64,000 nucleotides of DNA, taken from positions 651,158 through 715,157 of the forward strand of contig NZ_LN852695.1 of assembly GCF_001244545.1 (NCBI RefSeq), read 5' to 3'. This document shows positions 29,620-46,794 of this stretch, one piece after another. This stretch comes from Candidatus Stoquefichus sp. SB1 (GTDB taxonomy: Bacteria; Bacillota_I; Bacilli_A; Erysipelotrichales; Coprobacillaceae). Both the position numbers and the translations under genes were made by a program. The notes beneath the pieces were generated by a model. The model saw only the letters and a list, made by a program, of their open reading frames with translations. It did no database searches and was not told the origin of the DNA. How positions within the stretch are numbered: the first letter of the stretch is position 1; each line of letters starts with the position of its first letter.

Positions 29620-29855
29620 TTGTTAAATGAGAATCTTGGAACATTTTCTAGGATAAACAAATGATTGAAACACAGGGACAATCTCTATATTATAAATTAT
29701 GAAAATCAAAAAGGTTATTGTAGGAATAAAATTCTCATTAACCTTTTTATATTTGTTATTTTATACATTTGGAAAAAATTACCAGAAGTATTGTCATGGG
29801 GATTATGCTAATATTGAGAATATACCAACATTTAACAAAGTGAGGAATGCAACAG

Positions 29856-30728
29856 ATGAAGAAAGTCATACTAACCGAAAAAACAATCAGCAGATTCAGG
29901 ATATTCATGATGGAAGAAGAACGCAGCAAGGCGACAATTGAAAAATATATGAGAGATATTCATCACTTTTATGAATATCTTCCTGAGAATAAGACAATCA
30001 CAAAAGAAATCGTGATTGCATTTAAGCAGTCGCTTTTAGAGACATATAAGGCAACGAGTGCCAATAGTATGCTGACAGCAGTCAACAGTCTGCTTGCCTA
30101 CATGGGACTTAGTGAGTGTAAAGTAAAATTACAAAAGATTCAAAAAAGAATCTTTCAAAATGATAAATACAATTTAACAAAGCAGGAATATCAGTGTTTG
30201 CTGAATACAGCAGTAGCAGCCGGCAACATGCAGTTATTCATGCTGATGCAGACAATCTGTGCGACTGGAATACGTGTGAGTGAACATCAGTATGTCACAG
30301 TAGAGGCATTGAAGCAAGGTTCAGCCTGTGTGCATAATAAAGGAAAAATCAGAGAAATTATTTTTCCAAAAAAACTAAAAAAAGCATTATTGCAATACTG
30401 CAAGGAGCGTCATATCAGTAGTGGACCTGCCTTTGTTACAAGACACGGAAATCCATTGGATCGCAGTAATATCTGGTCTATGATGAAGAAACTGTGTGCA
30501 AAGGCAGGAGTAGATAAGGAAAAGGTGTACCCACATAATTTACGCCATCTTTTTGCGTTCACTTTTTATGCCATCGAAAAAGACCTTGTCCGTCTTGCGG
30601 ATATACTTGGTCATTCCAGTATTGAAACAACACGTATCTATACAAAAACATGTCTGAAAAAATGTCAGAATATTCTCGATCGGATGGGATTGTTGTCGAA
30701 TAATAATCTGGATTTTGCAATATCATAA
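29856..30728 (+). CDS. Tyrosine recombinase (site-specific integrase)
   Basis: A 290-residue phage-integrase-family recombinase. The N-terminal SAM-like DNA-binding domain spans about residues 5-85 and the catalytic domain about 105-275. Catalytic residues are visible: Arg in CATGIRVSE, the H-x-L-R box in PHNLRHLFAF, His in LGHSSIETTR, and the nucleophile Tyr in RIYTKT. It is XerC-sized, with no long phage-type arm domain. I prefer ATG 29856 (GTGAGG ten bases upstream) over ATG 29847. It lies four bases from an element with perfect 27-bp inverted repeats and reads toward it, so it is the obvious candidate to invert it. No excisionase or conjugation gene is nearby, arguing against an ordinary mobile element. 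Confidence 0.92.
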   Translation: MKKVILTEKTISRFRIFMMEEERSKATIEKYMRDIHHFYEYLPENKTITKEIVIAFKQSLLETYKATSANSMLTAVNSLLAYMGLSECKVKLQKIQKRIFQNDKYNLTKQEYQCLLNTAVAAGNMQLFMLMQTICATGIRVSEHQYVTVEALKQGSACVHNKGKIREIIFPKKLKKALLQYCKERHISSGPAFVTRHGNPLDRSNIWSMMKKLCAKAGVDKEKVYPHNLRHLFAFTFYAIEKDLVRLADILGHSSIETTRIYTKTCLKKCQNILDRMGLLSNNNLDFAIS

Positions 30729-30732
30729 AAAT

Positions 30733-30759
30733 ACAACATAATGAGTATTATGTTGTAGA
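30733..30759 (+). repeat. Inverted repeat left (recombinase site)
   Basis: A 27-bp repeat: arm ACAACATAAT, core GAGT, reverse-complement arm ATTATGTTGT, then AGA. Its exact reverse complement is at 31141-31167. The inner palindrome around an asymmetric core is the normal layout of a tyrosine recombinase crossover site. Confidence 0.92.
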
Positions 30760-30771
30760 ATGTTTTCATAT

Positions 30772-30801
30772 CGGCAAAAGTCCTTTTAAATCGCCGTTTT
30801 T
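30772..30801 (+). terminator. Terminator of recombinase gene, inside inverton
   Basis: CGGC (30772-30775) pairs with GCCG (30793-30796), with AAAAG/CTTTT inside, followed by five T. Confidence 0.6.
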
Positions 30802-30823
30802 CTGTATGGTTCTCTATCATAAA

Positions 30824-30852
30824 AATATAGGCAACAATTCCATGTATGTAAA
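30824..30852 (-). promoter_or_regulatory. Inverton promoter, reading leftward
   Basis: On the minus strand TTTACA (30852-30847), a 17-base spacer and TATATT (30829-30824) form a good sigma-A promoter. As sequenced it reads across the left repeat into the 3' end of the recombinase gene, antisense. After inversion it would read through the right repeat into the LytTR gene. Confidence 0.65.
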
Positions 30853-30944
30853 ATTGTAACCGTTTTACATAAAATATCTTACCATTTTGCATCATCCTCA
30901 ACAATAGATATTGGTAAACAATAAAATATTTTGGGGAAACCTCA

Positions 30945-30971
30945 TTTATATCACTTTTTATGTGATATAAA
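30945..30971. promoter_or_regulatory. Central dyad in inverton
   Basis: TTTATATCAC, seven bases and GTGATATAAA are exact reverse complements. No T tract follows, so a protein-binding site is more likely than a terminator. Confidence 0.5.
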
Positions 30972-31077
30972 TATGATAAAGCTGAAAAAAAGAGCGCAAA
31001 AAAGCCATGAAAACGGCATATTCAAAAAAACATATACTGATTCCTGATGAAGCTTTCTGTCATATAATTATTCAATC

Positions 31078-31102
31078 GGCATCCATTCGTGATGCCTTTT
31101 TT
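31078..31102 (+). terminator. Terminator facing the LytTR gene
   Basis: GGCATC, a 7-base loop and GATGCC followed by six T. In this orientation it would stop any transcript coming from the recombinase side before the LytTR gene. Confidence 0.75.
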
Positions 31103-31140
31103 GTGTTTTTTTCATGTATATTCTATCTGTCTGGATAGGG

Positions 31141-31167
31141 TCTACAACATAATACTCATTATGTTGT
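31141..31167 (-). repeat. Inverted repeat right (recombinase site)
   Basis: Exact 27-bp reverse complement of the repeat at 30733-30759; the match stops at both ends (30732 against 31168, and 30760 against 31140). Confidence 0.92.
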
Positions 31168-31189: not shown

Positions 31190-31999
31190 ATGAGAAAGGA
31201 AGACATCAGTCATTGTATAGAATTGACTAAGGAGATCATGATCCGTCATTACCGAAAGGATGATGATTTTGCAATTGGATATTTACATAGAAGCTGTATC
31301 TGGATCGGTTCCTGTGCAGAGGAATTTTATGTCGGTAAACAGACAATAGCCGAAGTCCTCAAAAAGGAATCAAAGGAACTGCCGGATATTGAACTAACCG
31401 CCTTTGATTATGTGTGCGTATCCAATGATACGCATGAATGTGTTATTACAGGAAGACACACAGGTCATACAACATGCACATCTGGTGAGATCTACAGTGA
31501 TATGCAGAGGATCACTTTCGTATGGAAAAAGATGAAAGATGAGCTCCTCATCATGCATATCCATGTATCCAATCCAATGAACAATCTGCAGGAGGGTGAG
31601 ATCTTCCCGCATAAGATAGGCAAATATACAAAGGGATATTTTGAAATGCTGGTCAATCGTGATATTAAGAAAAATGGGTCTATTACCATTAAGGATCAGA
31701 AGAACCGATACCATATCATCAATATCCATGACATCCTGTACTGTGAAGCGTTTGATATGAACTGTATCATCCACCTTGCAAAGAACGATGTCTTTGGACG
31801 CATCACGCTGCTTGACTTTGAACAGAAGCTGACTGAAAAAAACAAAGATATGTTCAAGCGAGTACATAAGAGTTACTTAGTCAATCGCTATCATACGAAG
31901 TCTTTAGCACGCTATGAGCTGATGCTGGAACATGAAATCAGAGTACCGGTATCACAGGAGCGCTATAACGATGTAAGGGATTGGCTGAATCATTGCTAA
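31190..31999 (+). CDS. LytTR regulator with NTF2/SnoaL-like sensor domain
   Basis: A 269-residue protein. Residues 1-130 look like an NTF2/SnoaL-fold domain (FAIGYLHRSCIWIGSCAEEF, ending FVWKKMKDELLIMHIHVSNP). Residues ~165-265 are a LytTR DNA-binding domain (DILYCEAFDMNCIIHLAK, MFKRVHKSYLVNR, IRVPVSQERY). There is no receiver domain, so it is a one-component regulator, possibly sensing a small ligand. It is the first gene after the invertible segment, and the SipW/TasA-like genes all follow it on the same strand, so it is the likely master switch. GC and codon use are clearly higher than at 28 kb. Confidence 0.82.
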   Translation: MRKEDISHCIELTKEIMIRHYRKDDDFAIGYLHRSCIWIGSCAEEFYVGKQTIAEVLKKESKELPDIELTAFDYVCVSNDTHECVITGRHTGHTTCTSGEIYSDMQRITFVWKKMKDELLIMHIHVSNPMNNLQEGEIFPHKIGKYTKGYFEMLVNRDIKKNGSITIKDQKNRYHIINIHDILYCEAFDMNCIIHLAKNDVFGRITLLDFEQKLTEKNKDMFKRVHKSYLVNRYHTKSLARYELMLEHEIRVPVSQERYNDVRDWLNHC

Positions 32000-32013: not shown

Positions 32014-32205
32014 ATGAAAAGAAAGATCGTGGCAAGACTGCCGGATATGTTTACACATGAGCAGTATCGGAGTGCCGGTGTTGCACATCTGGTTAATATG
32101 GATCAGGAGATTGAATTTTACTATAGGGGAAAACCGATAACAAAGGAACAGGCAAATGAAATGGTGATAGAGCATTATAAAAGAAAGAACGCTCTGTCAA
32201 AATGA
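32014..32205 (+). CDS. Small basic protein in fibre locus
   Basis: A 63-residue protein (MKRKIVARLPDMFTHEQYRS, FYYRGKPITKEQANEMVIEH) of unknown family. The ATG at 32014 follows GGGAGGG by six bases, and it starts 14 bases after the LytTR stop, so the two are co-transcribed. A longer in-frame reading begins inside the LytTR gene and is unlikely. It could be an accessory or antirepressor peptide. Confidence 0.6.
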   Translation: MKRKIVARLPDMFTHEQYRSAGVAHLVNMDQEIEFYYRGKPITKEQANEMVIEHYKRKNALSK

Positions 32206-32235: not shown

Positions 32236-34008
32236 GTGGCGACAACAATAACGGATCAACTTGAGGTGTTGACAGAACGCCTGGCGGAATTATATTTCAT
32301 CAAGCGTGACTATACAGGACTTTCAGGATTCTTATCGGATCAAATCAGCTGGATAGGAACGGGAGTCAATGAGATATGCAGCAGTAAGAAAGAAGCAGTC
32401 ATGTTTTTTGAGGAGGAATCCAGAATCTATGACGGATATTTTCTGATAGAGAATGCATGGTTTCATGGCATTGAGATCAGCAGTGATCTGGGGATCGTCA
32501 TGGTAACGCTGACTGCTAAGACCCTGCCGGATGCTTCCTGCGTGATGAAGATGCCTCTGCGATTTTCTGTTGTATGGCATAAGGATAATAATCTGTGGAA
32601 GGTCATTCATGTGCATAATTCCATAGCGGATACCGACCTGAAGGAACATAACTATTTCAATATCGAGGCAGCGCAGTCGGCCTATTCACAGATGAATGAA
32701 AGACTCAGCAATGCTGTCAATACCGATCCGCTGACAGGCATCAGCAATATGACAGGATTCATCCATGATACAGAAAAGATATTCAAGAAATATCCTGATG
32801 ATTCGTATGCCATCATCAAGTTTGGCATCAAGAACTTCCGCTATATCAATCGGGTTCATGGATATGGCATGGGAGACAAGGTACTGCAGAACATTGCGAA
32901 GAATCTGAAAAAGACATGCCGGGAGGGAGAAACATGCGCAAGGATAGAGAAGGACATCTTTGCGATGACCTATCGTTTCCTTACAAAGGATGAAATGTCG
33001 TATCGAGAGAAGAAGGTACGAACGAAGCTCATTGACAGGCGTATCAGCAAGAAGATCAACATGGACATCTGCTTTGTTGCAGGCATCTATCTGCCGCAGG
33101 ACATCCGACATGAGCATGTCATTGACATGCTGGACAAGGCACTGATCGCCCAGCAGAGCGTTCCCAAGAACATCACAGGAAGCCGGTCAGTCTATTATGA
33201 TGATGCAATGATGAATAATATGATCCAGAAGAATGAACTTCTGGAATCGGCAATCCCAGCGATGCAGAACGATGAATATAAATTATACATACAGCCTCAG
33301 TTTGATATTCAGACACATCGCATCATATCGGGAGAGGCGCTGTGCCGATGGCAGAAAGATGACGGAACACTTATCCCGCCCAATGACTTCATACCGGTAT
33401 TTGAGGAATATGGAATGATCATCAGCTTTGACTTCCATATGCTGGAACTGCTCTGCAGACAGATGAGAAAGTGGATGGATGAAGGACTGGAACTGAAGCC
33501 AGTATCCATCAATCAGTCCCGACTGCACATAGAAAATGAAGCATATCTCGAAGATTTCTGTTCAACTGTGGACAGATATGGCATTCCTCATGAGGACATT
33601 GCCTTTGAACTGACAGAATCAGCGTTCGTAGAACAGCAGGACGAAATGCTGAAGCTGGCATCCAATCTGCATAAGCGTGGATTTCAGCTGGCTATCGATG
33701 ACTTTGGAACAGGGTATGCCTCCCTCAACTTCCTAAGTGTCGTATCAGCAGATATTCTGAAAATAGATAAGTGCCTGCTTGACGGGATAGAAAATAATAA
33801 GCGTTCCCGTTCGATCATAGAGAAGACAATCGAGCTGGCACATGAGATCGACATGACAGTCATCTGCGAAGGCATAGAAACAGAAGAACAATTAGAATAC
33901 CTCAGCAGAATCGGCTGTGACATCGGACAGGGCTTTCTGATTGGCAGGCCGATGGAATCCAGGCAGTTTGAAAAGCTGTGGATGCAGGATAAAGTATTAT
34001 CGAATTAA
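32236..34008 (+). CDS. EAL phosphodiesterase with degenerate GGDEF and NTF2-like sensor
   Basis: A 590-residue soluble protein. Residues 1-135 form an NTF2/SnoaL-like domain (ISWIGTGVNEICSSKKEAVM, VVWHKDNNLWKVIHVHNS) that parallels the N-terminus of the LytTR protein. The GGDEF domain (about 155-300) has IEKDIF where GGDEF should be, so no cyclase activity is expected. The EAL domain (about 335-585) keeps GEALCRW, the Asn of SINQS, ELTESAF, IDDFGTGYASL, the Lys of LKID, CEGIET and GQGFLIG, so c-di-GMP hydrolysis is likely. GTG start with GGAG upstream. It links c-di-GMP to the surface-fibre genes that follow. Confidence 0.88.
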   Translation: MATTITDQLEVLTERLAELYFIKRDYTGLSGFLSDQISWIGTGVNEICSSKKEAVMFFEEESRIYDGYFLIENAWFHGIEISSDLGIVMVTLTAKTLPDASCVMKMPLRFSVVWHKDNNLWKVIHVHNSIADTDLKEHNYFNIEAAQSAYSQMNERLSNAVNTDPLTGISNMTGFIHDTEKIFKKYPDDSYAIIKFGIKNFRYINRVHGYGMGDKVLQNIAKNLKKTCREGETCARIEKDIFAMTYRFLTKDEMSYREKKVRTKLIDRRISKKINMDICFVAGIYLPQDIRHEHVIDMLDKALIAQQSVPKNITGSRSVYYDDAMMNNMIQKNELLESAIPAMQNDEYKLYIQPQFDIQTHRIISGEALCRWQKDDGTLIPPNDFIPVFEEYGMIISFDFHMLELLCRQMRKWMDEGLELKPVSINQSRLHIENEAYLEDFCSTVDRYGIPHEDIAFELTESAFVEQQDEMLKLASNLHKRGFQLAIDDFGTGYASLNFLSVVSADILKIDKCLLDGIENNKRSRSIIEKTIELAHEIDMTVICEGIETEEQLEYLSRIGCDIGQGFLIGRPMESRQFEKLWMQDKVLSN

Positions 34009-34030: not shown

Positions 34031-34663
34031 ATGAAAAGAATCAAGCCATCCAGCGTGATAGGAATCATAGCCTGTATCATATTTATACCGATCATCGTTG
34101 TCAATCTTGCAATCATCTTTAATGGATTTCAGGATAATGAAAATATGCCGGGGTTCATGGGCTATCGGCCTGCGATCGTCTTATCAGGATCCATGGAACC
34201 AACCTTTGATGCAGGAGATGTCATCGTCATAGAAAAAGCAGAAGATACAGGGAACCTGCAAAAAGGCGATGTCATTACATATCTGGTATCAGGCAAGGCG
34301 ACAACGCACAGGATCATCAGCGTAACGGAGCATGAAGGAAAGACAGCCTATGTGACAAAGGGAGACTACAACAATGTAGAGGATAGACTGGCAGTGTATC
34401 CGGAACAGATACAGGGTATCTATAAGGGATTTCGCATCCCCAATCTGGGAAATATCCTGATGTTCATGCAGAGCACACAGGGAATGCTGGTATGTCTGGG
34501 AATCCCATTTGCGCTCTATATCCTGTATGACATCTTCAAGCGAAGAAAAGACAGCAGGAAAGAGAATGAGGCACTGCAGGATCAGCTGAAGGAAAAGGAA
34601 AGACTGGAAGCAGAACTAGCGAAGCTGAAGGCAGAGAAGCAGCAGATAGAAGAGACAGAATAG
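34031..34663 (+). CDS. sipW: SipW-type signal peptidase I with coiled-coil tail
   Basis: A 210-residue membrane protein of the SipW (ER/archaeal-type) S26 class. A helix at about residues 9-30, then LSGSMEPTFDAGDVIVI with the catalytic Ser. TTHRIISV supplies His in place of the Lys of ordinary signal peptidases, and KGDYNNVED is the third conserved box. A second helix (about 150-170) and a charged coiled-coil tail (EALQDQLKEKERLEAELAKL) follow. SipW enzymes process TasA-type fibre proteins. ATG 34031 follows AGGAGAGGAAG. Encoded just before a TasA-like protein with a matching signal. Confidence 0.9.
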   Translation: MKRIKPSSVIGIIACIIFIPIIVVNLAIIFNGFQDNENMPGFMGYRPAIVLSGSMEPTFDAGDVIVIEKAEDTGNLQKGDVITYLVSGKATTHRIISVTEHEGKTAYVTKGDYNNVEDRLAVYPEQIQGIYKGFRIPNLGNILMFMQSTQGMLVCLGIPFALYILYDIFKRRKDSRKENEALQDQLKEKERLEAELAKLKAEKQQIEETE

Positions 34664-34757
34664 ATGAAATGAAATCGTTGTAATACACATCTGATAGGTT
34701 GGCACAGAACATTGGATGATGTTTACATATAAAAGAAAAAAATGGAGGAAAGAAGAA

Positions 34758-35396
34758 ATGAAAAGAAAGAAAAGCATAGCCGGACGATTAGGCATGGCAG
34801 CTTTTGCGCTGACTCTGGTAACGACATGCATTTCCGGAGGAACGCTTGCGAAGTATGCCAGTGAGGTAACAGGTACAGGAACTGCGGTTACTGCAAAATG
34901 GGCATTCAAGGCAGGAAGTACAGAAGGTGCAGAATCAATCACAACTTTTAAATTAGGAGAGACGGATAATTCCGCTACTATTGCCAAAGAAAGAATCGCG
35001 CCAGGCAGTACTGGGACCGTTCCACTTTACTATGATCTGAGCGGCACTGAAGTCAAGACAAATCTCAAAATTAGTATCAAGGTAGATGATGTTAGTGAAC
35101 TACCAACGAATTTCAAAATCACATGTGATGGTGTAACTAAGGGAAAAACAGATTTCACAAACGATACTTATGTAGATTTCATGTCAAAGGATATTTCTGT
35201 AGATACATCAACAGGTGTTCTGACTGCAGCGGATGCAAAAGCACAAAAAGATATCACATGGGCATGGGCATTTGAAACAGGTAATGATGACTCAGCAAAG
35301 AAAACAGGAAACACAGCTGATACAGCAGATGGAAAAGCAGCGAATACAGTCAATTTCACAGTCAAGGTAGAAGCAACACAGTTAGCAGGGTCATAA
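34758..35396 (+). CDS. TasA/camelysin-like exported protein
   Basis: A 212-residue exported protein with a SipW-type signal peptide: MKRKKSIAGRLGMAAFALTL, then CISGGTLAKYASEVTGTGTA, the conserved ending LAKY-S recognised by SipW. The mature part is a beta-rich, Thr/Asp-rich single domain with a PLYYDLSGTEVKTNLKISIK strand pattern as in TasA/camelysin. TasA proteins form biofilm amyloid or donor-strand fibres; camelysins are metalloproteases. No HExxH is visible, so a structural role is likelier. Start is ATG 34758 behind GGAGGAAAG. Confidence 0.85.
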   Translation: MKRKKSIAGRLGMAAFALTLVTTCISGGTLAKYASEVTGTGTAVTAKWAFKAGSTEGAESITTFKLGETDNSATIAKERIAPGSTGTVPLYYDLSGTEVKTNLKISIKVDDVSELPTNFKITCDGVTKGKTDFTNDTYVDFMSKDISVDTSTGVLTAADAKAQKDITWAWAFETGNDDSAKKTGNTADTADGKAANTVNFTVKVEATQLAGS

Positions 35397-35529
35397 ATAC
35401 GGTCAGTATCTTATATCAGATCAAGGCACAAAAACTAGGGAGCAGTGTCCTGTGCCAGCACTGCCCTTTAGCAAAACCCACAGAATACTCTGTGAGCTTT
35501 GCTAAGGGAAAAAGAACAGGAGAATGATT

Positions 35530-37044
35530 ATGGATGATAAATTGAAAGATCAAAGTACAACTGAACAGATCAATCAACAGGATGAAGGGAAAAAGCATAA
35601 AAAACTGATTCTTTTATTACTGTTGCTTTTACTTTTTTCCAGTGTCGGTGTCAGTCTCATGCTGAATCATCATACAGAGGAGCTTCCTACTGTCGATACC
35701 ATAACGATCGATCCTGTCGAGAAACGTAATATACACGTATCCGGTCAGGTTATGTATTCTGATGGAAGAGTCTATCAGAACGGTCGTGTACAGCTGCATT
35801 CCGACGTCATGGAAACAAAGACAGATGAGAATGGATGGTTTCTGTTCAAAGATGTCGATCCTGCAGAACATACGCTATCGGTACTTGATAAGGATGGTAA
35901 TGTCATAGCAAAAGCACTTATATCTGTGGAACAGAAACAGAAGGGACAGAATTTCAATATCACGAAGAATAAGGACGGGGAATATGTTGTCCATTTATCA
36001 GCAGCGATTCGCTACCTGGAACTGAAAGTTGAGGTCGATGGAGATAAGCTTCTGCTGATACCGGAAAGCAGCTATGCAGTAACAGATAAAGGAAATGTCT
36101 TTACACAGGATGGACAGCTAAAAGTCGATGATGGACAGATCGTACTGCCATCAGGAACCGTTGTTCTGGAAAACAATAATATCGTGCATTATCCATACAT
36201 GGTGAAGCCGGACAATACAATCATCAGCATTCCTGAAGATGGCGTCAAACTGGAAGATGGAACAGTGATACAGGGGGACGGAACGATCGTATTCCCTAAG
36301 GATGATGTAGAAATCAACGATGAAAGAGATGAAGTCACGAATGGTAATGACGGAACTACTCATGAGATACCAAAGGATAAGCCGTCAAATGTGAAGCCGG
36401 ATGGTGATGTAGAGCCAATCGTGCCTAGTGAACCAGACACACCAACGGATCCCGATAAACCAGTCGATCCGGATACTCCGATTGATCCAGACAAGCCAAC
36501 AGATCCGGATACGCCAGTAGAGCCTGATGATCCACTTTCCCCTCCAGAGGGCTATACCGTGAGAGGAAACAATAAGGCAGGCTGGACAAGTCCATGGAAT
36601 GTGACAACACCGTTAACTGCACTAGACCTTTTTGATACAGGAAAGATAAACAGTGAGAATGTGCCTGTCATACAGCCGGGATCAGAAGGCAGCTACATCT
36701 TCTGTCTGGAAAACAATCGTTCTACCAATCTCTCGGTAAAGATCTATCTTGAAAAGGTATCAAAGGTTGAGTTTCCACTGGAATACAGACTGTCTGAAAT
36801 TCAGAGCATCGACAGTGTGGTAGATGACAATGTGAAATGGCAGAGTCTGAAGGATGGAGAACTGACGCTTTCTGCAGATGGAACCATTGGTCATAAGAGT
36901 ACAGATAATCGAAAGCTATACCGTCTGGAATGGAAATGGCCATTCGATAAAACAAATAGTAAAGATACAGAACTTGGAAAGAATCAGTCAAAGTTTGAAA
37001 TCAAGCTAGGTGTCCGTGTAGAAGAACTGGTAAAAGAGAAATGA
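35530..37044 (+). CDS. Membrane-anchored fibre-locus protein, Pro-rich linker and TasA-like C-terminus
   Basis: A 504-residue protein. A short cytosolic N-terminus, one membrane helix (about residues 20-40, KKLILLLLLLLLFSSVGVSL) and then an extracellular carboxypeptidase-regulatory-like beta domain (VSGQVMYSDGRVYQNGRVQL). Next come repeats of short DGTI/DGQIV strands (about 175-255), a PxxPxDP linker (about 298-340) and a C-terminal TasA/camelysin-like domain (VIQPGSEGSYIFCLENNRST). It may be the membrane base or anchor of the fibre: inner helix, spacer, then a domain of the fibre type. The ATG at 35530 has AGGAG seven bases upstream. The last four bases overlap the next signal peptidase gene. 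Confidence 0.75.
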   Translation: MDDKLKDQSTTEQINQQDEGKKHKKLILLLLLLLLFSSVGVSLMLNHHTEELPTVDTITIDPVEKRNIHVSGQVMYSDGRVYQNGRVQLHSDVMETKTDENGWFLFKDVDPAEHTLSVLDKDGNVIAKALISVEQKQKGQNFNITKNKDGEYVVHLSAAIRYLELKVEVDGDKLLLIPESSYAVTDKGNVFTQDGQLKVDDGQIVLPSGTVVLENNNIVHYPYMVKPDNTIISIPEDGVKLEDGTVIQGDGTIVFPKDDVEINDERDEVTNGNDGTTHEIPKDKPSNVKPDGDVEPIVPSEPDTPTDPDKPVDPDTPIDPDKPTDPDTPVEPDDPLSPPEGYTVRGNNKAGWTSPWNVTTPLTALDLFDTGKINSENVPVIQPGSEGSYIFCLENNRSTNLSVKIYLEKVSKVEFPLEYRLSEIQSIDSVVDDNVKWQSLKDGELTLSADGTIGHKSTDNRKLYRLEWKWPFDKTNSKDTELGKNQSKFEIKLGVRVEELVKEK

Positions 37045-37547
37045 GAAAAATAATCACAAAAGGCGGAACATTGGTGCTTGGTATTCTCGTATGTCTGCTG
37101 ATCATCATACTTGGCATTCAGGCATACAACAAACTCATTGTTCATGATGAAACTGCCGGCATTCTGGGCTATAACTACAAGACAGTTCTGACAGGTTCCA
37201 TGGAACCTGTAATACCAGTTGGCAGCATCGTCATTACAAAAGAACAGAGCAGTTATGAAATGGAAGATATTATATCCTTTCAGGAAGAAGGAAGCGTCAT
37301 TACACATAGAATCATCAGCATAGACAGGGAACGATACATAACAAAAGGCGACGCCAACAATGTGGCAGATACAGAAGAAGTCCAGCAGAAACAGATATTA
37401 GGGAAAGTGATTCTGACGATACCGCTGCTTGGCTATCTGGTCATGTGGCTGATGTCACCAGTCGGAATCATCAGTTTATTTATCATCATGGGAATCTGGT
37501 ATATAGCGACAGGAAGAAACAGAGGTGCAGGAAATGAAAAGGAATAG
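37041..37547 (+). CDS. Second SipW-type signal peptidase I
   Basis: A 168-residue SipW-class enzyme: N-terminal helix (about 10-27), TVLTGSMEPVIPVGSIVI with the catalytic Ser, SVITHRIISIDRE with His, TKGDANNVAD, and a C-terminal helix (about 130-160). It lacks the coiled-coil tail of the first SipW. It overlaps the previous gene by four bases and the next by 14, so all are tightly coupled. Two SipW enzymes in one locus suggests each serves its own set of substrates. Confidence 0.88.
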   Translation: MRKIITKGGTLVLGILVCLLIIILGIQAYNKLIVHDETAGILGYNYKTVLTGSMEPVIPVGSIVITKEQSSYEMEDIISFQEEGSVITHRIISIDRERYITKGDANNVADTEEVQQKQILGKVILTIPLLGYLVMWLMSPVGIISLFIIMGIWYIATGRNRGAGNEKE

Positions 37548-38043
37548 GACAACATTAAGGAAAACAGCAATCGGATTAGTATTCATACTGCTGGTTATGG
37601 GTGCTGTGACACTTGCACGCTACACTTCCTCCATACAGGGACAGGGTACTGCAACGACTGCCTTATATCAGAATAATGCTACTTTTACCTTGACCGGTGA
37701 TGACATTCCTACTCATCCCAATGACAGCAGAACTATTGAATTTACCGTGTCAAATACCAAAGATAACAAAACAGCAGAAGTTGCACAGATTTATGAATTC
37801 ATGATTCAAACTGCTGAGAACATTCCATTCAAATTTGAGTTATCAAAAGATAATGGATCAACTTGGAAAGAAGCTACAGCAAATGTAAAAACAGATTATA
37901 AAGATAACATTCTTAACTTGAATGAGCAAACAGATACATGGAAATTAAAGATTACATGGCCTGATTCTGCAAGTGAAAGTACCTATACAAATGAAATTGA
38001 CTATGTACAAATAAAAGTGCTGATGGAACAGAAAACAAGTTAA
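37534..38043 (+). CDS. TasA-like exported protein, minor
   Basis: A 169-residue protein with a SipW-type signal: MKRNRTTLRKTAIGLVFILL, then GAVTLARYTSSIQGQGTATT. The mature part is a small beta domain (NATFTLTGDDIPTHPNDSRT onward) with an immunoglobulin-like strand order expected for TasA-type subunits. The ATG at 37534 lies in the tail of the signal peptidase gene behind GAGGTGCAGGA. Probably a second fibre subunit. Confidence 0.75.
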   Translation: MKRNRTTLRKTAIGLVFILLVMGAVTLARYTSSIQGQGTATTALYQNNATFTLTGDDIPTHPNDSRTIEFTVSNTKDNKTAEVAQIYEFMIQTAENIPFKFELSKDNGSTWKEATANVKTDYKDNILNLNEQTDTWKLKITWPDSASESTYTNEIDYVQIKVLMEQKTS

Positions 38044-38057
38044 AGGAGGAGCATTGC

Positions 38058-38897
38058 ATGAAAAGAAAGAAAAAATACAATAGTAAAGCAATACAGAAAA
38101 AACTCCTTAGGATACTTGTTGTTTTAGTGCTGATTGTTCTCACATTAGGCAGTCTTACTCTGGCAAAGTATATGAGCCAGTTGAATTCAGATAAGATCAT
38201 AGGCAGACCGGATGGTTTTTATTTTGAAAGTGATTATCTGACTGTGAACAATTCTCCTTATGAGATGCAGAACTGGAACAGAGATAAAGATTACAGCTTC
38301 ATTGTGGACATTCGAAATTTTCAGGACTCATTGAGAGCATCAGAAATGGATGTGTCCTATAAACTCGAAATATCTGAGCTGGGATCAAACGTGACGGCAT
38401 CATTGAATGGAGATAATGTAACAAGTAATACAACTTTTACAATGTCAGCGGATCAGACCGTTACGGATCAGTTGTTGATTACTGTACCAAAAGGAAAAAC
38501 ACCATCCAACAACAAAATTCAGATAAAAGCTACGGCAGTCCCGGAATCATCGAATGGATATTCCAAGGAAATCAGTGCTGTGTTTACACTTATAGAAAAC
38601 TCATCCACATTTGAGCTGCAGTTGGAAAATCACAAAGATTATTATGATCTGCTGATAGGTGTTGCGAAGTCAGGTCAGACCATGACAATAAACTGGCCAA
38701 GTGGCTTTACACCGGATAGCACTGTTACAGAGTTAAAAAGTGCAAGCACTACATCTGCAAGCTATACAACAAATGGGGATGATACAAGTGTCAGGCTGCG
38801 ATTCTTTGTGACAGGTACGATTGATAAAACAAAATCATTCTCTGTAAAGGACAGCAGTGGAAACGAAAAAGCTGTCAAGATCAGTAATGCACAGTAA
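38058..38897 (+). CDS. TasA-like exported protein, larger
   Basis: A 279-residue protein with the same export signal pattern: basic start MKRKKKYNSKAIQKKLLRIL, hydrophobic core and LGSLTLAKYMSQL. The mature region has two beta-rich halves; the first (SPYEMQNWNRDKDYSFIVDI) has the TasA-like pattern of a long subunit and the second (about residues 185-275) may be an added domain. It starts 14 bases after the previous stop with AAAGGAGG upstream. Fibre subunit or adaptor for the giant protein that follows; the role is inferred. Confidence 0.72.
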   Translation: MKRKKKYNSKAIQKKLLRILVVLVLIVLTLGSLTLAKYMSQLNSDKIIGRPDGFYFESDYLTVNNSPYEMQNWNRDKDYSFIVDIRNFQDSLRASEMDVSYKLEISELGSNVTASLNGDNVTSNTTFTMSADQTVTDQLLITVPKGKTPSNNKIQIKATAVPESSNGYSKEISAVFTLIENSSTFELQLENHKDYYDLLIGVAKSGQTMTINWPSGFTPDSTVTELKSASTTSASYTTNGDDTSVRLRFFVTGTIDKTKSFSVKDSSGNEKAVKISNAQ

Positions 38898-38907
38898 GGA
38901 GGAACAT

Positions 38908-41900
38908 ATGAAGAAATTAAAATTTAAAAAGGACGTATTACATAAATTAAAAGTATTTATTTCTCTCTTTATTGTAGGAACAATGATGATCCAGTTTTTG
39001 AGTAATGACTATGTACTGGCTCATACGCAGGACAATGTCATTGCAACCTATGATATTGGTGTGGATAAAGGGAATGTGACAGCTACATTAACATCGGATG
39101 GTAAATTAACGATCAGTGGAACAGGTGATATTAAAGATTATACAGAAACAACAATGCCCTTCTCTGATAACATAAAATATATTTCTAGTTTGGTTATCGA
39201 GGATGGTATCACGTCTATCGGTGATTATACATTCTTCGGATGTAAAAATCTGAACGATAAACTGGAGCTTCCTAAGACAATAACCAGCATAGGAGACTAT
39301 GCATTCAGCGGCTACAGCAAAGAGACAGCGCCAGCATTTACCTATATTACAAATGAGTTTACATCAGCAGATATTACTGTACCGATTCCAGAAACGAAAG
39401 AAGATAATGCTGAGGAACCAGTAGCAGATAAGAAAGAACAAGAACAGCAAAACAGTGAAGACACATCTCATGAAAATGCTAATGTTCAACAGAATGCAGA
39501 AAACGTCGCTTCGGATTCAACTGAACCTGCAGGCGATGATCAAGCTAATGTGAATAATGAGGAAACATCTCAAGTTGAAGATGAAAATAAAACTCCTCAG
39601 ACTTCCGGTAAAATGGAAATCAAAACAATTACAGAACAAGAAGTAGGAAAAGACATCTTCTTTCCAAATCAAACAGGTGGATATAAAGCGAAAGAAACAA
39701 ATAAAAGTTTTAGAACAGCTTCGGAGAATGCAGGGTATATTGAAGCAGATCGTTTTTTGACAGTGAAGCTTGATAATATCATCACACAACATCTTCCAGT
39801 TAAAAATGGCAAACTGATTGTGCCTAATCGACCAAATTATGGAATCGAATCACCAGTACCTGATGATGCCTATATGATACATACATTTAAGGGCTGGAGC
39901 ATAGATAACCAAATAGTGCAGCCTAAGGAAGAATATGCAATTACAGATAATTTAGATGAAATCACATTAACATCTCAGTGGAATACAGAGTGGAGCATCA
40001 ATCCTCAGATTAAGACAGAGGCAAAAGAAGATGTATCTGTTTATAGTATAATTGATGGAAATACACAGAAACCATTAGAACAAGCAGAAGGATATGTCTT
40101 ATCGGTACAGTGGCAGATCAATAGTAAGGATGAGAAAGATGATGCGGCATGGGAAGATATAGATAATGCAACCTCTCTTACCTATGAACGAAAGGTGCAG
40201 GCAAAGGATACTTCTAGCTTCTTTAGAGCAAAGATAGCAATCGCAAGACAAACAAAGTTAAGAACGGCTGCCGAAATAAATGAAATAACAACAGAAGCAG
40301 TTAATGGTATCAATTCGCTTACTCCTATTACAGTGACATATAATGCAGGAGAAGGTGGAACTGGTATTATTGAAAACAAAGATCTTAAAGATGGTGATAA
40401 CTATAAGCCAGAAGAAAACACTTTTACTCATCCAGATGGCAAAGTGTTTACAGGATGGAAAGTAAGTTTAACAAATGTTACTGCAATTAGGAATGATGGT
40501 ACTGCAATAAATGATGGAGATATTGTACACTCATATGATCCTATTACAATATCTTTATCCAATGTAGAATCAGGGTCAATCACTTTAACTGCCCAATGGG
40601 ATACACAAACAGTTATTTATGTGGATAGTACGATATCTTCTAGTGGTGATGGATCAACACCCGAGACAGCAGTGAAAACAATAAATGAAGCATATAATCT
40701 ATTGTCAAGTACGGGTACAATAGATACTAATAAAATAGTTTTATGCAGTAACTATAGTTTTAGTGGTGTTACTCAATTAGGCGATAAAGCTACCGCTATT
40801 ACCTCTTTAGATAAAATAAATCCTGTTACTTTAAATACAGGAATAACTAATGGAGCAAATAAATCTCCGACAGCAGCATTAGTAGCGCATGCAGATTTGA
40901 AATTTGATAATATCATATTATCTTCAACTAGAACTGCGTTACAACATTATGAAACTAATGCACTTTTTATGATGGGGTATCATCTTGTTATAGGTGAAAA
41001 TGTATCAAATGTGAACTATATATCTATTGTAGGTGGTGGTTATACGACAAGTCACGTTTTTGATGAAACTAATATTGACATTTATAGTGGTAATTGGGGA
41101 TATATTTTCGGCGGTGGATATGCAGGTACTATAACTGGTGATGCCAATATAAATTTATTTGGAGGAAGTGTAAGATATATATATGCTGGATGTGGTTATG
41201 GTAATCTTGGGAGTGAAAATATAAATAATGGTACAGTAAATGGATCAGCAAACACATATGTATATGCAGGAAGTGCAAGCATGTATCAAGGGGCAAGAGG
41301 TGGAAGAATAAAGGGAACAGGACATGATTATAGTAATAAGTTAATCATGTATGGTGGTGTAATAGATGGAATAAGAGGAGGACCAACACAACCTAATTAT
41401 GCTAATTTTGAGAAGAAAACGATTATTGAAATTCATGGGGGAAAGATCACTGATACTGTTTTTTTAGGTTCTGGTGATGGCTCTACAAAAATAGGTCAAA
41501 GCAATGGCGTGGATATTAGTATTTATGATGGAGCTATATTGACTAAAGATTTATATTTAGGAAGTAATGATAATATTACGGGTAGTTCAACAGGAATCAC
41601 TCTTGTTGGTGATAAAAATCTTACCATGTATGGTGGAGAAATTTATGGTGATGTTTATGGTGGATGCAATTTAGGTAGCACAAAAGATGGTAATGTTAAT
41701 ATTACTATAAAAAGCGGTGTCGTTAAGGGAAATATTTATGGAGGTGGAAGAGGAAGCGATAAATACACTGCTCAGATAATTGGCAATACTAATATAATAA
41801 TAGAAAATAATGCAATTATAGAGAAAAATGTTTATGGTGGTGGTTTCTATAGAACTCAAAACCAAGGTAATATAATCATCAATATTGATGGAAGAGTATC

Positions 41901-44900
41901 AAATGTTTATGGAGCAGGTAATGGTACATTAACAAATGTCACAGGAAACTCAACAGTGAATATATCATCAAGTGCAATAATAAGTGAAAATGTATATGGC
42001 GGTGGAGAGGAAGGAAAAGCGAATACTACTTTCATAAATATATCGGGTGGAAAGATAGGCGATACTACAGCAAAGGAAACGGGAAATCTATATGGTGGTG
42101 GAAATAAGATTGGAGTATCTGCTTCAAATATAACGGTAAAAGGTTCTCCTGTTATCAATGGTAATATCTATGGCGGAAGCAATGCTTTAGGAACAACCAC
42201 AACGTCAAATGTGAATATAGAAGGTACAGTTACAAATGATGTTTACGCCGGAGGCAAAGGTAGTGGTACTACTGTAACTACAGCAAATCTGAATATCAAT
42301 ACAGGAGCTGATATTAAAGGGAATGCCTTTGGTGGTGCTGAAGAAGGTGCTGTAGGTGCTTCTAATATTAAAATCGCTGGCGGTAAAGCAAATAGTGTTT
42401 TTGGCGGTTCCGATAAGGCAAGTATCTCAGGTGCTGTTAAGATAGAATCTAGTACAGGTTCATTTGCTAAGGATATATATGGTGGATGTAACTCTTCTGG
42501 ATCTATTGGTAGTTTATCTATGAACCTTGCAGGTAAAGCTGACAATGTATTCTTAGGTGGTAATGCAACTCCTACTGAAAGTAAAGATATAACTGGAGAA
42601 GCAAAGATAGATGTTACTACGAATGAAGCAAATAGCATCGGTAATATCTATGGTGGTTCTAATTCTACTGGATCAGTTACATCTCCTGCTATCAATATCA
42701 GTGGCTATGTTACGAATGTCTATGGTGGTGGTAAAGGTTCTTCCACAACGACTAATACTCCTAGTGTTACAATCAAATCAGGAGGTCATGTCACAGGCAG
42801 TGTTTATGGTGGTGGAGAAGAAGGTATCACACATGGAACAACTGTGACTTTAGATGATGGAAGCATCGTTAATGATGCTTTTGCCGGTGGAAATAAAGTG
42901 GGTGTTGATGGTACTGTTGCAGTCATTGCATCTACTGGCTCTAAGGCTAATAATATCTATGGTGGTTCTAATAATTCTGGAACTATGGATAAACCTACTG
43001 TCACTATCAAAGGCGAAGCAGAAAATGTATACGGTGGAGGTTATGGTGCTGATACAACAACAAGTAATCCTATCGTAAATGTAGAAACTGGAAGTAAAAT
43101 AACAGGTAGTGTATTTGGTGGTGGTAATCTAGGGCAGGTAGAAAATCCTACAGTTAACCTTAATGGTGGTACTGTGAATAATGCATTTGCTGGAGGAAAT
43201 GCAGTAGGTGTAACCGGTACTGTAGCTCTTAATGTAAAAGATGGAGTAACCGCAACAAATATTTATGGAGGATCAAATTCATCAGGCAATGTAGATAATC
43301 CTTCACTTTCAGTTAAGGGAGGAACCATTACAAATATCTATGGTGGAGGTTTTGGTGGTGCATCTAATGATGGCAATAATGGAACCATCACATCTAATCC
43401 TAATATCACTATAGAAAACGGAACAATCGATAGTGTTTATGGCGGTGGCGAACGAGGTGTTACAACAAAGACGAATACAATATCAGTAACTGGAGGAACA
43501 CTGACGAATATCTATGGTGGCGGAAACAAAGCACAAGCGGAGAATACAGTTATCAATTTGAATAATACAATGGGTTCAATCACAAATGTGTATGGAGGAT
43601 GTAACAATAGTGGTACTGTTCAAAGCTCAAAGATATATATTGATGGTACGATCACCACTGTATTTGGCGGTGGTAAAGGTCAAAATACAACCGTCAATGA
43701 ATCTTATACCAAGACAGAAGCTTCTGCGAAAGTCACAGATATTTATGGTGGTAGTGAAAAAGGTACAGTTACCAATGCAACGCTTGTGGTTCATGGGCCA
43801 GTGGAAGGCAGCATCTATGGCGGTGGTCTTGGTGCGACTTCGGTCATTAAAGGCAATACATGGGTATATGTATCTAATAGTGTCAAAGGCAATGTCTATG
43901 GCGGAGGAAATCAGGGGAAAGTTGTTGGTAATACACACGTGGATTTAGCATCTGGTACGATTGGTATAAGTACCAATGATGATGCGACAGGTAATGTTTT
44001 TGGCGGATCGAATCAAGCCAAAGTTGAAGGCAACACACTTCTTCATATTGGAAGCTATGTCGTCAAGGCTCCTGAAGGCGCTGTACTTCCAGAAGGTGAT
44101 GAGAAAAGTCTTATTGTTTATGGCACTGTGTTTGGTGGCGGGAATACCACTTCAACAGGAAAAGATTTTGATGCCTCTGATCCCTATGTAATGGGGACTG
44201 CAACAGTTGAAATTGGTGGTACAGGCTATAAAAAAGTTGATATTCAAAAGAGCATCTTTGGTGATGGAAATAAATGTGTTACCAATGGAGATAAAACCAT
44301 TGAAATCAAAGATTATAAAGCATTGACAAGCAATGCAAATAAATCTATTCAACGTGCAACAACTCTGAAAATCATAAACAGTGATATCGAACTGATTGGA
44401 GAAAAGGATACTGCTAACTTAGTGACGACGATTGATTATTCATTAAATCGTATTGATAATCTCATACTAAAAGGTGGAAGTCTATTGAAATTACAAACTC
44501 CAGTCAATCTGGTTATGGGATTTGAAAGCCAGAACGAGGATGGCTCATTACAAACGATTGAACAGGCTAATAACGATACAACAGGAAATAGACTCTATGT
44601 ACAGCAGGGACAGCATATCGAATTGAGAATAAATGAAGATGTTAGCCGTCCGGGATATGGAGATGTGAAAGGTTTTGCGCAATTAGGAAGATACTATATA
44701 GATGGTCAATCTCTTGATAAGGACGCACAGGGTGTCTATGTCATGGGTAGTTATTACAGTGATGAAACTAATAATACAAATAGTGGCTTCATTGTCGCAG
44801 AAGCAGAAAACTTTGTTGATCAGACTGAGCTTAAGAAAGGGGATGTCATTACACCTACTACAAATTCCACATCATGGAGAAACTGGTTGTTAGGTTCATC

Positions 44901-46794
44901 TATTAAAAATGTAGAAAGGAATATGGTCATTTCTGATGAACCTGCTGATGGAAAAACAGTACAGATTAAAGAAACATGGTCAGCAGATGGATCCATCTAT
45001 CGAATTGATCCAGGTAGTGTCGAAATGAGTGGAGATAAATACACGATCGTCAATCCTGATGAAATCACTTCGTCAAGTAATCAGAATACGATAGGACTTA
45101 GCATTGAAACTGGACAGACTGGTTGGCTGGAACAAGTCAAAGCAGGATATATAGATAGTGCGACGAAATCAGTTATTCCTTATAAGACAGATACGACTTT
45201 ATCTGTAAATAATAGTCTGGATATGCGTTCTCTTGTAAATCCTACTCAGGAACCTATTATTAATATAAAACTATATAATGTTGAAAGTATAACTTCAACT
45301 GATTCTGATTCTCTTGTAGTGACATTCACGATTGATCGTATCATCCAGCAGACAGATGGATCTGAAGTCAAGATGGGTTCCATCATAGTAAAATTGAACA
45401 TTACTAAGAAAGCGACACAGACATATTCTAATGTTCTTGTTTCACAAGGAAAGACCTATGATCGAGGAGAACAGTCTTATAACTATGATACTGCAAGTGA
45501 TAAGATTGCGACTACAGTATCGGGTAAAAGTTCTATTACAGCACAGTTTGCTGAGAAATCGGATACTGCAAAATCTGTTTCAAAATATGAACTTGTTTTA
45601 ACAAATGGATCGAGTGGAGGATATTCAACACTTCCTAAAGGAACAAAGGTATTGATGATAGATAAAAGTGGAAGCACTCCAGTGTATTATAACTATACCG
45701 AAGAAGCAGGAAATACATCTGTAGAATTAACCAAATTTAAAAAGAATGGTACAGATGAGTATTATAAGATTCCTACATCAGCCATTACAAAGTCAAATTT
45801 CATTTTTGTATTTGATTTTGCAGATGTTAGTAATAATGATAATGACTTTTTAGTAACATTTAAATCCACTTATTCGAATGGATCACCATCGGAAAAGAAA
45901 TTAAGATTTGCTGTAAAAGGTGATCCAAGGACATATGATCTGAATAGTCAACAGGATAACAGTTCTGCAACTGAAACTGCGATTCCTTCATATCGAATGA
46001 ATGGTTCCTTTGGAATCAATCTGAATACAACTGCAACAGCAACAGAGGGTGCTGGAACGGATACAACAGGAACTGATATGCAGATGGCAGCGAAAGTACA
46101 ACTGAAGCTGACGAATATGATCACTGGAACCGTGTTGCCAATTCCAAAAGGCTGGCTGATACAAAGCAATGGTACTCGTTATTCAACAAGTGGAGATAGT
46201 GCAACGATTATTCTAGCAAATTGTCTGACTGCAACAAGTTCTGATATTTATGTCATCATGAGTAATATGGGTGATGTATCTGCTGGTGATTATAAGTTGG
46301 AAATTTCTCTTGTTACTGGTGCAATGGCAAATTATCCATTTGCAACATTAAGCAGTAAAAACATCATTTATAAGTTTAAACTAACTGATGATCGTTATTC
46401 AATTAAATCAACTATTCAGGATGAAAGCAAACAGGTTATTACAAAGGATAGCACAGATAAGACACTTACTTATGATGTGATCCGTGTAAAAGATAATTCA
46501 TCCTCTACCTCAGATATAAAAACGAAACTAACGCTATGGAAGAAAGAAAATGGTATATATAAAGAGGTTGATTTTGCAGATTATATAGCTAATGTTAAAG
46601 ATGTGACAACAGGAAAAGACATTACAAATCAGGAAATACCTTGGTCAATCTATAAAACAATCTCTGTACAATTGAATGATAATATATCTGTAGGAACGTA
46701 TCAGTTAAGATATGATATTATTCAAAACACTACAGGTAGTGGAAAGCAGACTATAGCAACTGAAATTAATTCATTTATTATTGCTGATAATTAA
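38908..46794 (+). CDS. Giant Gly-rich repeat surface protein
   Basis: 2628 residues. A signal peptide ends near residue 36 (SNDYVLA/HTQ). Then BspA-type leucine-rich fragments (SLVIEDGITSIGDYTFFGCK, about 40-140), an acidic low-complexity linker (about 150-260), Listeria-Bacteroides/InlB-like repeats with FKGWS and FTGWKV boxes and Ig-like parts (about 300-570). Residues ~700-1800 hold dozens of short repeats around VYGGG/IYGGS/NVYGGG with alternating Thr/Asn strands, as expected of a parallel beta-helix. The last ~830 residues form several beta domains. The end (NSFIIADN) has no LPxTG motif or membrane helix. Start is ATG 38908 behind AAGGAGG. Adhesin or fibre-associated protein; last gene of the locus. 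Confidence 0.85.
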   Translation: MKKLKFKKDVLHKLKVFISLFIVGTMMIQFLSNDYVLAHTQDNVIATYDIGVDKGNVTATLTSDGKLTISGTGDIKDYTETTMPFSDNIKYISSLVIEDGITSIGDYTFFGCKNLNDKLELPKTITSIGDYAFSGYSKETAPAFTYITNEFTSADITVPIPETKEDNAEEPVADKKEQEQQNSEDTSHENANVQQNAENVASDSTEPAGDDQANVNNEETSQVEDENKTPQTSGKMEIKTITEQEVGKDIFFPNQTGGYKAKETNKSFRTASENAGYIEADRFLTVKLDNIITQHLPVKNGKLIVPNRPNYGIESPVPDDAYMIHTFKGWSIDNQIVQPKEEYAITDNLDEITLTSQWNTEWSINPQIKTEAKEDVSVYSIIDGNTQKPLEQAEGYVLSVQWQINSKDEKDDAAWEDIDNATSLTYERKVQAKDTSSFFRAKIAIARQTKLRTAAEINEITTEAVNGINSLTPITVTYNAGEGGTGIIENKDLKDGDNYKPEENTFTHPDGKVFTGWKVSLTNVTAIRNDGTAINDGDIVHSYDPITISLSNVESGSITLTAQWDTQTVIYVDSTISSSGDGSTPETAVKTINEAYNLLSSTGTIDTNKIVLCSNYSFSGVTQLGDKATAITSLDKINPVTLNTGITNGANKSPTAALVAHADLKFDNIILSSTRTALQHYETNALFMMGYHLVIGENVSNVNYISIVGGGYTTSHVFDETNIDIYSGNWGYIFGGGYAGTITGDANINLFGGSVRYIYAGCGYGNLGSENINNGTVNGSANTYVYAGSASMYQGARGGRIKGTGHDYSNKLIMYGGVIDGIRGGPTQPNYANFEKKTIIEIHGGKITDTVFLGSGDGSTKIGQSNGVDISIYDGAILTKDLYLGSNDNITGSSTGITLVGDKNLTMYGGEIYGDVYGGCNLGSTKDGNVNITIKSGVVKGNIYGGGRGSDKYTAQIIGNTNIIIENNAIIEKNVYGGGFYRTQNQGNIIINIDGRVSNVYGAGNGTLTNVTGNSTVNISSSAIISENVYGGGEEGKANTTFINISGGKIGDTTAKETGNLYGGGNKIGVSASNITVKGSPVINGNIYGGSNALGTTTTSNVNIEGTVTNDVYAGGKGSGTTVTTANLNINTGADIKGNAFGGAEEGAVGASNIKIAGGKANSVFGGSDKASISGAVKIESSTGSFAKDIYGGCNSSGSIGSLSMNLAGKADNVFLGGNATPTESKDITGEAKIDVTTNEANSIGNIYGGSNSTGSVTSPAINISGYVTNVYGGGKGSSTTTNTPSVTIKSGGHVTGSVYGGGEEGITHGTTVTLDDGSIVNDAFAGGNKVGVDGTVAVIASTGSKANNIYGGSNNSGTMDKPTVTIKGEAENVYGGGYGADTTTSNPIVNVETGSKITGSVFGGGNLGQVENPTVNLNGGTVNNAFAGGNAVGVTGTVALNVKDGVTATNIYGGSNSSGNVDNPSLSVKGGTITNIYGGGFGGASNDGNNGTITSNPNITIENGTIDSVYGGGERGVTTKTNTISVTGGTLTNIYGGGNKAQAENTVINLNNTMGSITNVYGGCNNSGTVQSSKIYIDGTITTVFGGGKGQNTTVNESYTKTEASAKVTDIYGGSEKGTVTNATLVVHGPVEGSIYGGGLGATSVIKGNTWVYVSNSVKGNVYGGGNQGKVVGNTHVDLASGTIGISTNDDATGNVFGGSNQAKVEGNTLLHIGSYVVKAPEGAVLPEGDEKSLIVYGTVFGGGNTTSTGKDFDASDPYVMGTATVEIGGTGYKKVDIQKSIFGDGNKCVTNGDKTIEIKDYKALTSNANKSIQRATTLKIINSDIELIGEKDTANLVTTIDYSLNRIDNLILKGGSLLKLQTPVNLVMGFESQNEDGSLQTIEQANNDTTGNRLYVQQGQHIELRINEDVSRPGYGDVKGFAQLGRYYIDGQSLDKDAQGVYVMGSYYSDETNNTNSGFIVAEAENFVDQTELKKGDVITPTTNSTSWRNWLLGSSIKNVERNMVISDEPADGKTVQIKETWSADGSIYRIDPGSVEMSGDKYTIVNPDEITSSSNQNTIGLSIETGQTGWLEQVKAGYIDSATKSVIPYKTDTTLSVNNSLDMRSLVNPTQEPIINIKLYNVESITSTDSDSLVVTFTIDRIIQQTDGSEVKMGSIIVKLNITKKATQTYSNVLVSQGKTYDRGEQSYNYDTASDKIATTVSGKSSITAQFAEKSDTAKSVSKYELVLTNGSSGGYSTLPKGTKVLMIDKSGSTPVYYNYTEEAGNTSVELTKFKKNGTDEYYKIPTSAITKSNFIFVFDFADVSNNDNDFLVTFKSTYSNGSPSEKKLRFAVKGDPRTYDLNSQQDNSSATETAIPSYRMNGSFGINLNTTATATEGAGTDTTGTDMQMAAKVQLKLTNMITGTVLPIPKGWLIQSNGTRYSTSGDSATIILANCLTATSSDIYVIMSNMGDVSAGDYKLEISLVTGAMANYPFATLSSKNIIYKFKLTDDRYSIKSTIQDESKQVITKDSTDKTLTYDVIRVKDNSSSTSDIKTKLTLWKKENGIYKEVDFADYIANVKDVTTGKDITNQEIPWSIYKTISVQLNDNISVGTYQLRYDIIQNTTGSGKQTIATEINSFIIADN
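41000..44200 (+). repeat. Gly-rich beta-helix repeat region in giant gene
   Basis: Within the giant gene, many units of roughly 25-45 codons centre on the motif x-Y-G-G-G/S (for example NIYGGSNSTGSV, NVYGGGKGSS, SVYGGGEEG). Units alternate between two types: GGSN-SG followed by a V-V-NI strand, and GGGKGSxTT followed by a VTI strand. They diverge at DNA level, so this is an old expansion and not a fresh slippage tract. Confidence 0.75.

Follow-up and report, generated by a model that had tools for sequence, protein, structure and literature searches.

A predicted invertible promoter between a tyrosine recombinase gene and a LytTR/c-di-GMP phosphodiesterase/surface protein gene cluster in Candidatus Stoquefichus sp. 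SB1

Introduction

Invertible promoters rank among the main sources of variation between cells in gut bacteria, and which recombinase serves which switch is mostly unknown in Firmicutes. The question is raised at a single locus by a 64,000-nt stretch of the genome of Candidatus Stoquefichus sp. SB1 (contig NZ_LN852695.1, positions 651,158 to 715,157; hereafter the window), in which a short segment bounded by inverted repeats separates the gene for a tyrosine recombinase from that for a LytTR-domain regulator (Table 1). Is this segment a promoter that can be flipped, is the adjoining recombinase the enzyme that flips it, and which genes would be switched? As judged by comparison with related loci in other genomes, the segment is very probably an invertible promoter (inverton) that is flipped by the adjoining recombinase and switches a LytTR/phosphodiesterase/surface operon.

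Table 1. Features of the window and related switches in genome G003 (positions in the window unless a locus is named).
Feature	Position	Strand	Evidence or remark
Tyrosine recombinase, 293 aa, proposed invertase	29847..30728	+	PF00589 E 6.8e-23; PF02899
Putative invertible segment	30733..31167	.	perfect 27-nt inverted repeats at ends; arrangement repeated in relatives
Left inverted repeat / putative crossover site	30733..30759	+	core GAGT
Best sigma-A-like promoter in segment	30824..30852	-	TTTACA-17-TATATT; aimed away from LytTR as assembled
Weak second terminator-like hairpin, opposite strand	31004..31017	-	-5.2 kcal/mol, z -0.7
Intrinsic terminator facing LytTR as assembled	31078..31096	+	hairpin with flanks -9.1 kcal/mol, z -3.2, then T6
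Right inverted repeat / putative crossover site	31141..31167	-	core GAGT on - strand
LytTR-domain regulator, first target gene	31190..31999	+	PF04397 E 1.1e-15
63-aa ORF between LytTR and EAL gene	32014..32205	+	read from sequence
SnoaL-like + degenerate GGDEF + EAL protein, predicted c-di-GMP phosphodiesterase	32236..34008	+	PF00563 E 2e-67; PF00990; PF14534
SipW-type signal peptidase 1	34031..34663	+	TIGR02228 105 bits, cut-off 51.85
Small secreted protein, possible fibre subunit	34716..35396	+	SipW-type leader (GTLAKY) in sequence
Membrane-anchored surface protein, CarboxypepD_reg domain	35524..37044	+	PF13620
SipW-type signal peptidase 2	37041..37547	+	TIGR02228 92 bits, cut-off 51.85
Small secreted protein	37525..38043	+	SipW-type leader (TLARY) in sequence
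Small secreted protein	38058..38897	+	SipW-type leader (TLAKY) in sequence
2645-aa repetitive surface protein, BspA-type LRR	38857..46794	+	PF13306 E 2.1e-9
G003 switches	L020 9121-9444; L022 9123-9356; L023 7942-8187; L123 5486-5717		

Results and discussion

The repeats, the segment and the recombinase

The two repeats are 100% complementary over their 27 nt and have 381 nt between them, so that the segment including both is 435 bp long; it is non-coding and lies 5' of the LytTR gene. Its left end follows the recombinase ORF after 4 nt and its right end precedes the LytTR start by 22 nt, lengths and gaps that a first-pass annotation had given exactly. In a 64-kb sequence of the same composition, about 5e-8 perfect pairs of such kind would be expected by chance within 600 bp. 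Each repeat reads ACAACATAAT-GAGT-ATTATGTTGT, a palindrome made asymmetric by its core, as that annotation had also recognised. A search of the strain's own genome with the site returned no further exact copy, and no inverted pair besides that at 30733/31141. Inside the segment, at 30945-30971, there is in addition a 10-bp perfect hairpin (TTTATATCAC/GTGATATAAA) with no T run, a possible regulator site.

The recombinase is full-length with an intact reading frame. Residues R143, K167, H230, R233, H256 and Y265, which we take to be the expected catalytic residues of the tyrosine recombinase family, all fall in invariant columns of a five-member alignment of relatives. The closest solved structures are those of XerC/XerA/XerD-like enzymes, and the protein scores under the cut-off of every named NCBIfam family to which it was compared. 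No repeats adjoin a second paralogue encoded by the same genome (36% identical, C6:924895).

Pairing of recombinase and site in relatives

The nearest relatives of the recombinase are encoded by genome G003 (59% identical), G035 (52%), C. symbiosum ATCC 14940 (49%) and an Oscillospiraceae MAG (46%), and further relatives by G145, G336, G239 and one contig from a viral collection. In G035, G336, G239, C. symbiosum, the Oscillospiraceae MAG and the viral-collection contig, the same palindromic site occurs as an inverted pair directly behind the recombinase gene. The exceptions are G003, where no pair abuts the gene, and G145, where the contig stops 320 nt past the first site. No abutting site pair was found for any of 24 other tyrosine recombinases checked.

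Within the genus of C. symbiosum, a site pair behind the gene was accepted for 23 of 26 family members (24 were matched by the script; L134 is weak, L138 lies at a contig end and L152 has an unread stretch). Measured from the end of the stop codon in 27 cassettes, the site starts anywhere from 9 nt before to 130 nt after it, and most commonly exactly 4 nt past it, as in the window. The inverton-linked recombinases fall on one side of a single branch of the tree (81/98), in which the enzyme of the window stands beside those of G003 and G035 and row L149 forms a long branch. The one same-genus genome examined has no close relative of either the recombinase or the LytTR regulator, and hence no orthologous locus for comparison. 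Taken by their sequences, the recombinase and the abutting predicted switch belong to a family of recombinase-plus-switch cassettes present in many gut-type Firmicutes.

Promoters, terminators and orientation

A sigma-A-like promoter scoring 9.9 or more was identified in 9 of 18 segments, as compared with 0.39 expected from shuffles. Four of the nine clearest promoters aim at the target gene (L020, L099, L117, L122) and the other five in the opposite direction (L018, L022, L081, L116, L123), a mixture to be expected if either state can be captured in an assembly. The promoter of the window is not significant when taken alone (p 0.21), and the family pattern is in its favour. Since it is aimed away from the LytTR gene while a terminator faces that gene, the assembled copy looks to be in the OFF state. 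A general two-headed promoter/terminator design was also considered, and was rejected as opposite terminators are present in only five or six of the 18 segments.

Inversion could also act with no internal promoter at all, if readthrough from the promoter of the recombinase gene (29665-29693 region) reaches LytTR unless the terminator at 31078-31096 stands in the way. That terminator is the best-supported signal of the segment, the internal promoter match being weak on its own, and control of an inversion switch through termination is known from the C. difficile flagellar switch, where Rho is involved (PMC7446863). However, promoters are strongly enriched across the family whereas terminators are patchy, and after a flip the second, weak hairpin would still lie between recombinase and LytTR. 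A switch gated by its terminator is thus considered unlikely, though not negligibly so.

A single assembly of the strain is available and one orientation is seen in it, as would be the case if the cassette had formerly inverted but had since become fixed, through silencing of the recombinase for instance. Such a relic fits poorly with 27-nt repeats that have kept their perfect match and with a recombinase whose reading frame and catalytic residues are intact, and it is given a rather small probability. The promoter probably continues to flip in this strain.

Elsewhere in the family, a contig of genome G425 (L143 70-1477) carries the cassette twice, in opposite orientations and with 100% identity over 287 bp, which reflects either a recent inverted duplication or the assembly of a mixed population. 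Orthologous cassettes in relatives of C. symbiosum were also compared for opposite orientations; four ortholog pairs were collinear, and both orientations were found only in G425. Three G145 contigs (L124, L125 and L126) have a common inverton interior sequence, two contigs breaking close by, and may represent mixed orientations or repeated cassettes. The reversed inverton sequence on the G145 contigs was rejected as evidence of inversion because the layout is too tangled.

The site motif and its proposed crossover core

Alignment of 33 site pairs gave arms ACATAAT and ATTATGT with 1.7 to 2 bits per position around a 4-nt core with 0.03 to 0.29 bits. The cores match when inverted in all 40 of the site pairs lying 100-600 bp apart, a match that was not imposed, as compared with 2.3% among pairs over all sites; some of the loci counted are near-orthologues or overlapping stretches that cover one cassette, so that not every count is independent. 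Free variation of the core between loci, together with identity within a pair, is the mark of strand exchange by a tyrosine recombinase, and an operator would have no such need. The proposal that cores are selected for distinctness within a genome was rejected, as eight random cores would mostly differ anyway.

This bears on a reading with no inversion, in which the palindromes serve as a pair of operators bound by a regulator, LytTR for instance, or fold into mRNA hairpins. Each site is indeed palindromic and could fold, as RNA, into a hairpin close to the ribosome site of LytTR, but neither the free yet pair-identical inverted core nor the linkage to one recombinase clade is needed by an operator, and the stretch folds no more strongly than shuffled sequence (z -0.8), making this reading very improbable. 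A role of the sites in excising or integrating a mobile element, suggested by the ParB-like and serine-recombinase genes on the viral-collection contig L099 and by the element-like genes beside the G003 copy, is less credible still, given that the paired sites are inverted rather than direct and that the recombinase gene lies outside the segment they bound.

Other arrangements of the site were noted in C. symbiosum. Tandem right-hand sites with the same core occur in L119 (5428/5762/5793) and L120 (4824/5149/5192), and could provide two possible inversion ends or a small deletion. In L121, two same-core sites about 6.2 kb apart in direct orientation (G421:C229:282 and 6452) surround an ABC transporter and a two-component system, with unread sequence beside one site.

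Overall, the inverton beside a tyrosine recombinase that the first-pass annotation had proposed is strongly backed by the pairing of recombinase and site across genera, by the free but pair-matched core and by the promoters in the segments.

Proposed mechanism of switching

In an invertible promoter of this type, the recombinase made from the gene just upstream would bind both ACATAAT-N4-ATTATGT sites and exchange strands across the 4-nt core. As the two cores are identical but inverted, recombination would flip the segment with no deletion. In the assembled, presumably OFF orientation, the promoter (30852-30824, - strand) would be aimed back into the recombinase gene, which it would transcribe in antisense and whose enzyme it may thereby damp, with the terminator facing LytTR. 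After flipping, the promoter would lie at about 31048-31076 and be directed towards LytTR, the ribosome site being outside the segment and unchanged. Transcription would then start ~107 nt ahead of the LytTR start codon, an interval in which no terminator was found, and LytTR, the c-di-GMP phosphodiesterase and the two SipW peptidases with their surface substrates would be driven as one operon.

Genes behind the predicted switch

The LytTR regulator, the EAL protein and the two SipW enzymes named in the first-pass annotation are all borne out by profile matches, both peptidases scoring above the TIGR02228 cut-off. The N-terminal part of the regulator resembles that of the EAL protein (E 2e-4). 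No + strand terminator was found in a search of 33.9-39 kb, which is consistent with one operon.

The label 'TasA-like' given earlier to the small secreted proteins is backed by no Pfam or NCBIfam profile, and no homologue was found in 60 relatives. An AlphaFold model of the 34716-35396 product, made from a single sequence, had a pLDDT of 49 and was too poor to judge the fold. Of the surface-fibre locus proposed at the same time, the surface part is supported by the SipW enzymes, the SipW-type leaders, the giant BspA-repeat protein, the failure to find a forward terminator between the genes and the surface and capsule targets of related switches; the TasA fold is putative. The genes would be transcribed as an operon, and their product may be a fibre.

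Putative targets of related switches

Genome G003 encodes one close family recombinase and has four switches distant from it (Table 1), on which this single enzyme probably acts in trans. One of these switches precedes a full-length homologue of the EAL protein of the window (43% identical), and the other three precede large surface proteins. An enzyme of this EAL type thus lies behind a switch of this kind in two genera, which speaks for the phosphodiesterase as a genuine target.

About eight recombinase-plus-inverton cassettes are present in the genome of C. symbiosum ATCC 14940 (G421; L116-L122), preceding capsule operons (CpsB, three times), a NusG-like factor, a BTAD regulator, an EAL protein and others. 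The CpsB-led operons directly behind three cassettes are a possible Firmicute counterpart of capsule switching in Bacteroides.

Several further contexts were observed. The cassette of the viral-collection contig (L099 3879-4153) lies in mobile DNA and its promoter is aimed at a putative DNA methylase gene. In L019 (10858-11111 and 11121-11348), ~10 nt separate the end of an inverton from a cobalamin riboswitch, and a flipping promoter may feed the riboswitch-controlled gene. Two distant genomes encode similar-looking small proteins immediately after the switch (L065, an 84-aa ORF to the left of the inverton, and L116 5380-5667).

Comparison with known switches

Similar pairs of tyrosine recombinase and inverton have already been published for gut Clostridia (PMC11892184). 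As described in that study, inverton group 139 comprises 33 invertons, 32 of them in Clostridia, and is linked most strongly to tyrosine-type invertase group 35, which is near almost all of them; flipping was detected from reads in Clostridium sp. D5 and Intestinimonas (PMC11892184). Like the family of the window, group 139 has a tyrosine recombinase nearby, a likeness of adjacency and size that fits the present family, and the start-to-start repeat distance given for one of its invertons is 231 bp, as compared with 147 to 423 in the pairs here. Unlike the window, no LytTR locus is named for the group in the main text (PMC11892184).

In C. difficile, RecV serves several switches from afar and most switch repeats of the species are mutually unrelated (PMC5903667), and the pdcB/pdcC switches show that inversion of c-di-GMP phosphodiesterase control is already known (PMC9286219). 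These systems have in common with the window a tyrosine recombinase, an invertible regulatory region, and surface and c-di-GMP targets. In contrast to RecV, the arms in the present family are common across genera and the recombinase usually abuts its own switch. The RecV-type layout of a distant enzyme and mostly unrelated repeats is thus not that of the window; G003 alone suggests action at a distance, and there the arms are the common ones.

The Bacteroides Mpi-controlled loci had been cited in the first-pass annotation as switches of this kind, but Mpi is a serine recombinase (PMC5903667) whereas the enzyme of the window is of the PF00589 tyrosine type. Mpi does resemble what is proposed for G003 in that one enzyme serves many surface loci, and its capsule operons recall those of C. 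symbiosum. The Bacillus tapA-sipW-tasA matrix operon likewise combines SipW peptidase with small secreted candidate substrates; the window differs from it in having no TasA profile match, in its giant BspA-repeat protein, and in the LytTR and EAL genes placed upstream under a predicted inversion switch. A literature search of partial coverage returned no account of this LytTR/EAL/SipW combination, and none of SipW or TasA under an inversion switch.

Implications

The distribution of the cassettes leads to a broader proposal, offered tentatively and with somewhat less than an even chance of being correct. A portable phase-switch cassette may have spread through Firmicutes and come to lie before regulators, c-di-GMP enzymes, surface proteins, capsule operons, a DNA methylase and a riboswitch. 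Its fixed arms would allow family recombinases to act on one another's sites, and the free 4-nt core would serve as an address against recombination between loci; hence one G003 recombinase could run a four-locus regulon in trans.

Because sequence directly reveals both the recombinase clade and its site, assembled genomes can be searched for switches and their partners with no need for reads, using the single pattern MACATAATNNNNATTATGTK together with a recombinase profile. In the strain itself, the presumed surface operon behind the switch begins with genes for a LytTR regulator and a c-di-GMP phosphodiesterase, so that one flip could alter both signalling and the cell surface. The wider family picture may deserve more interest than the single locus.
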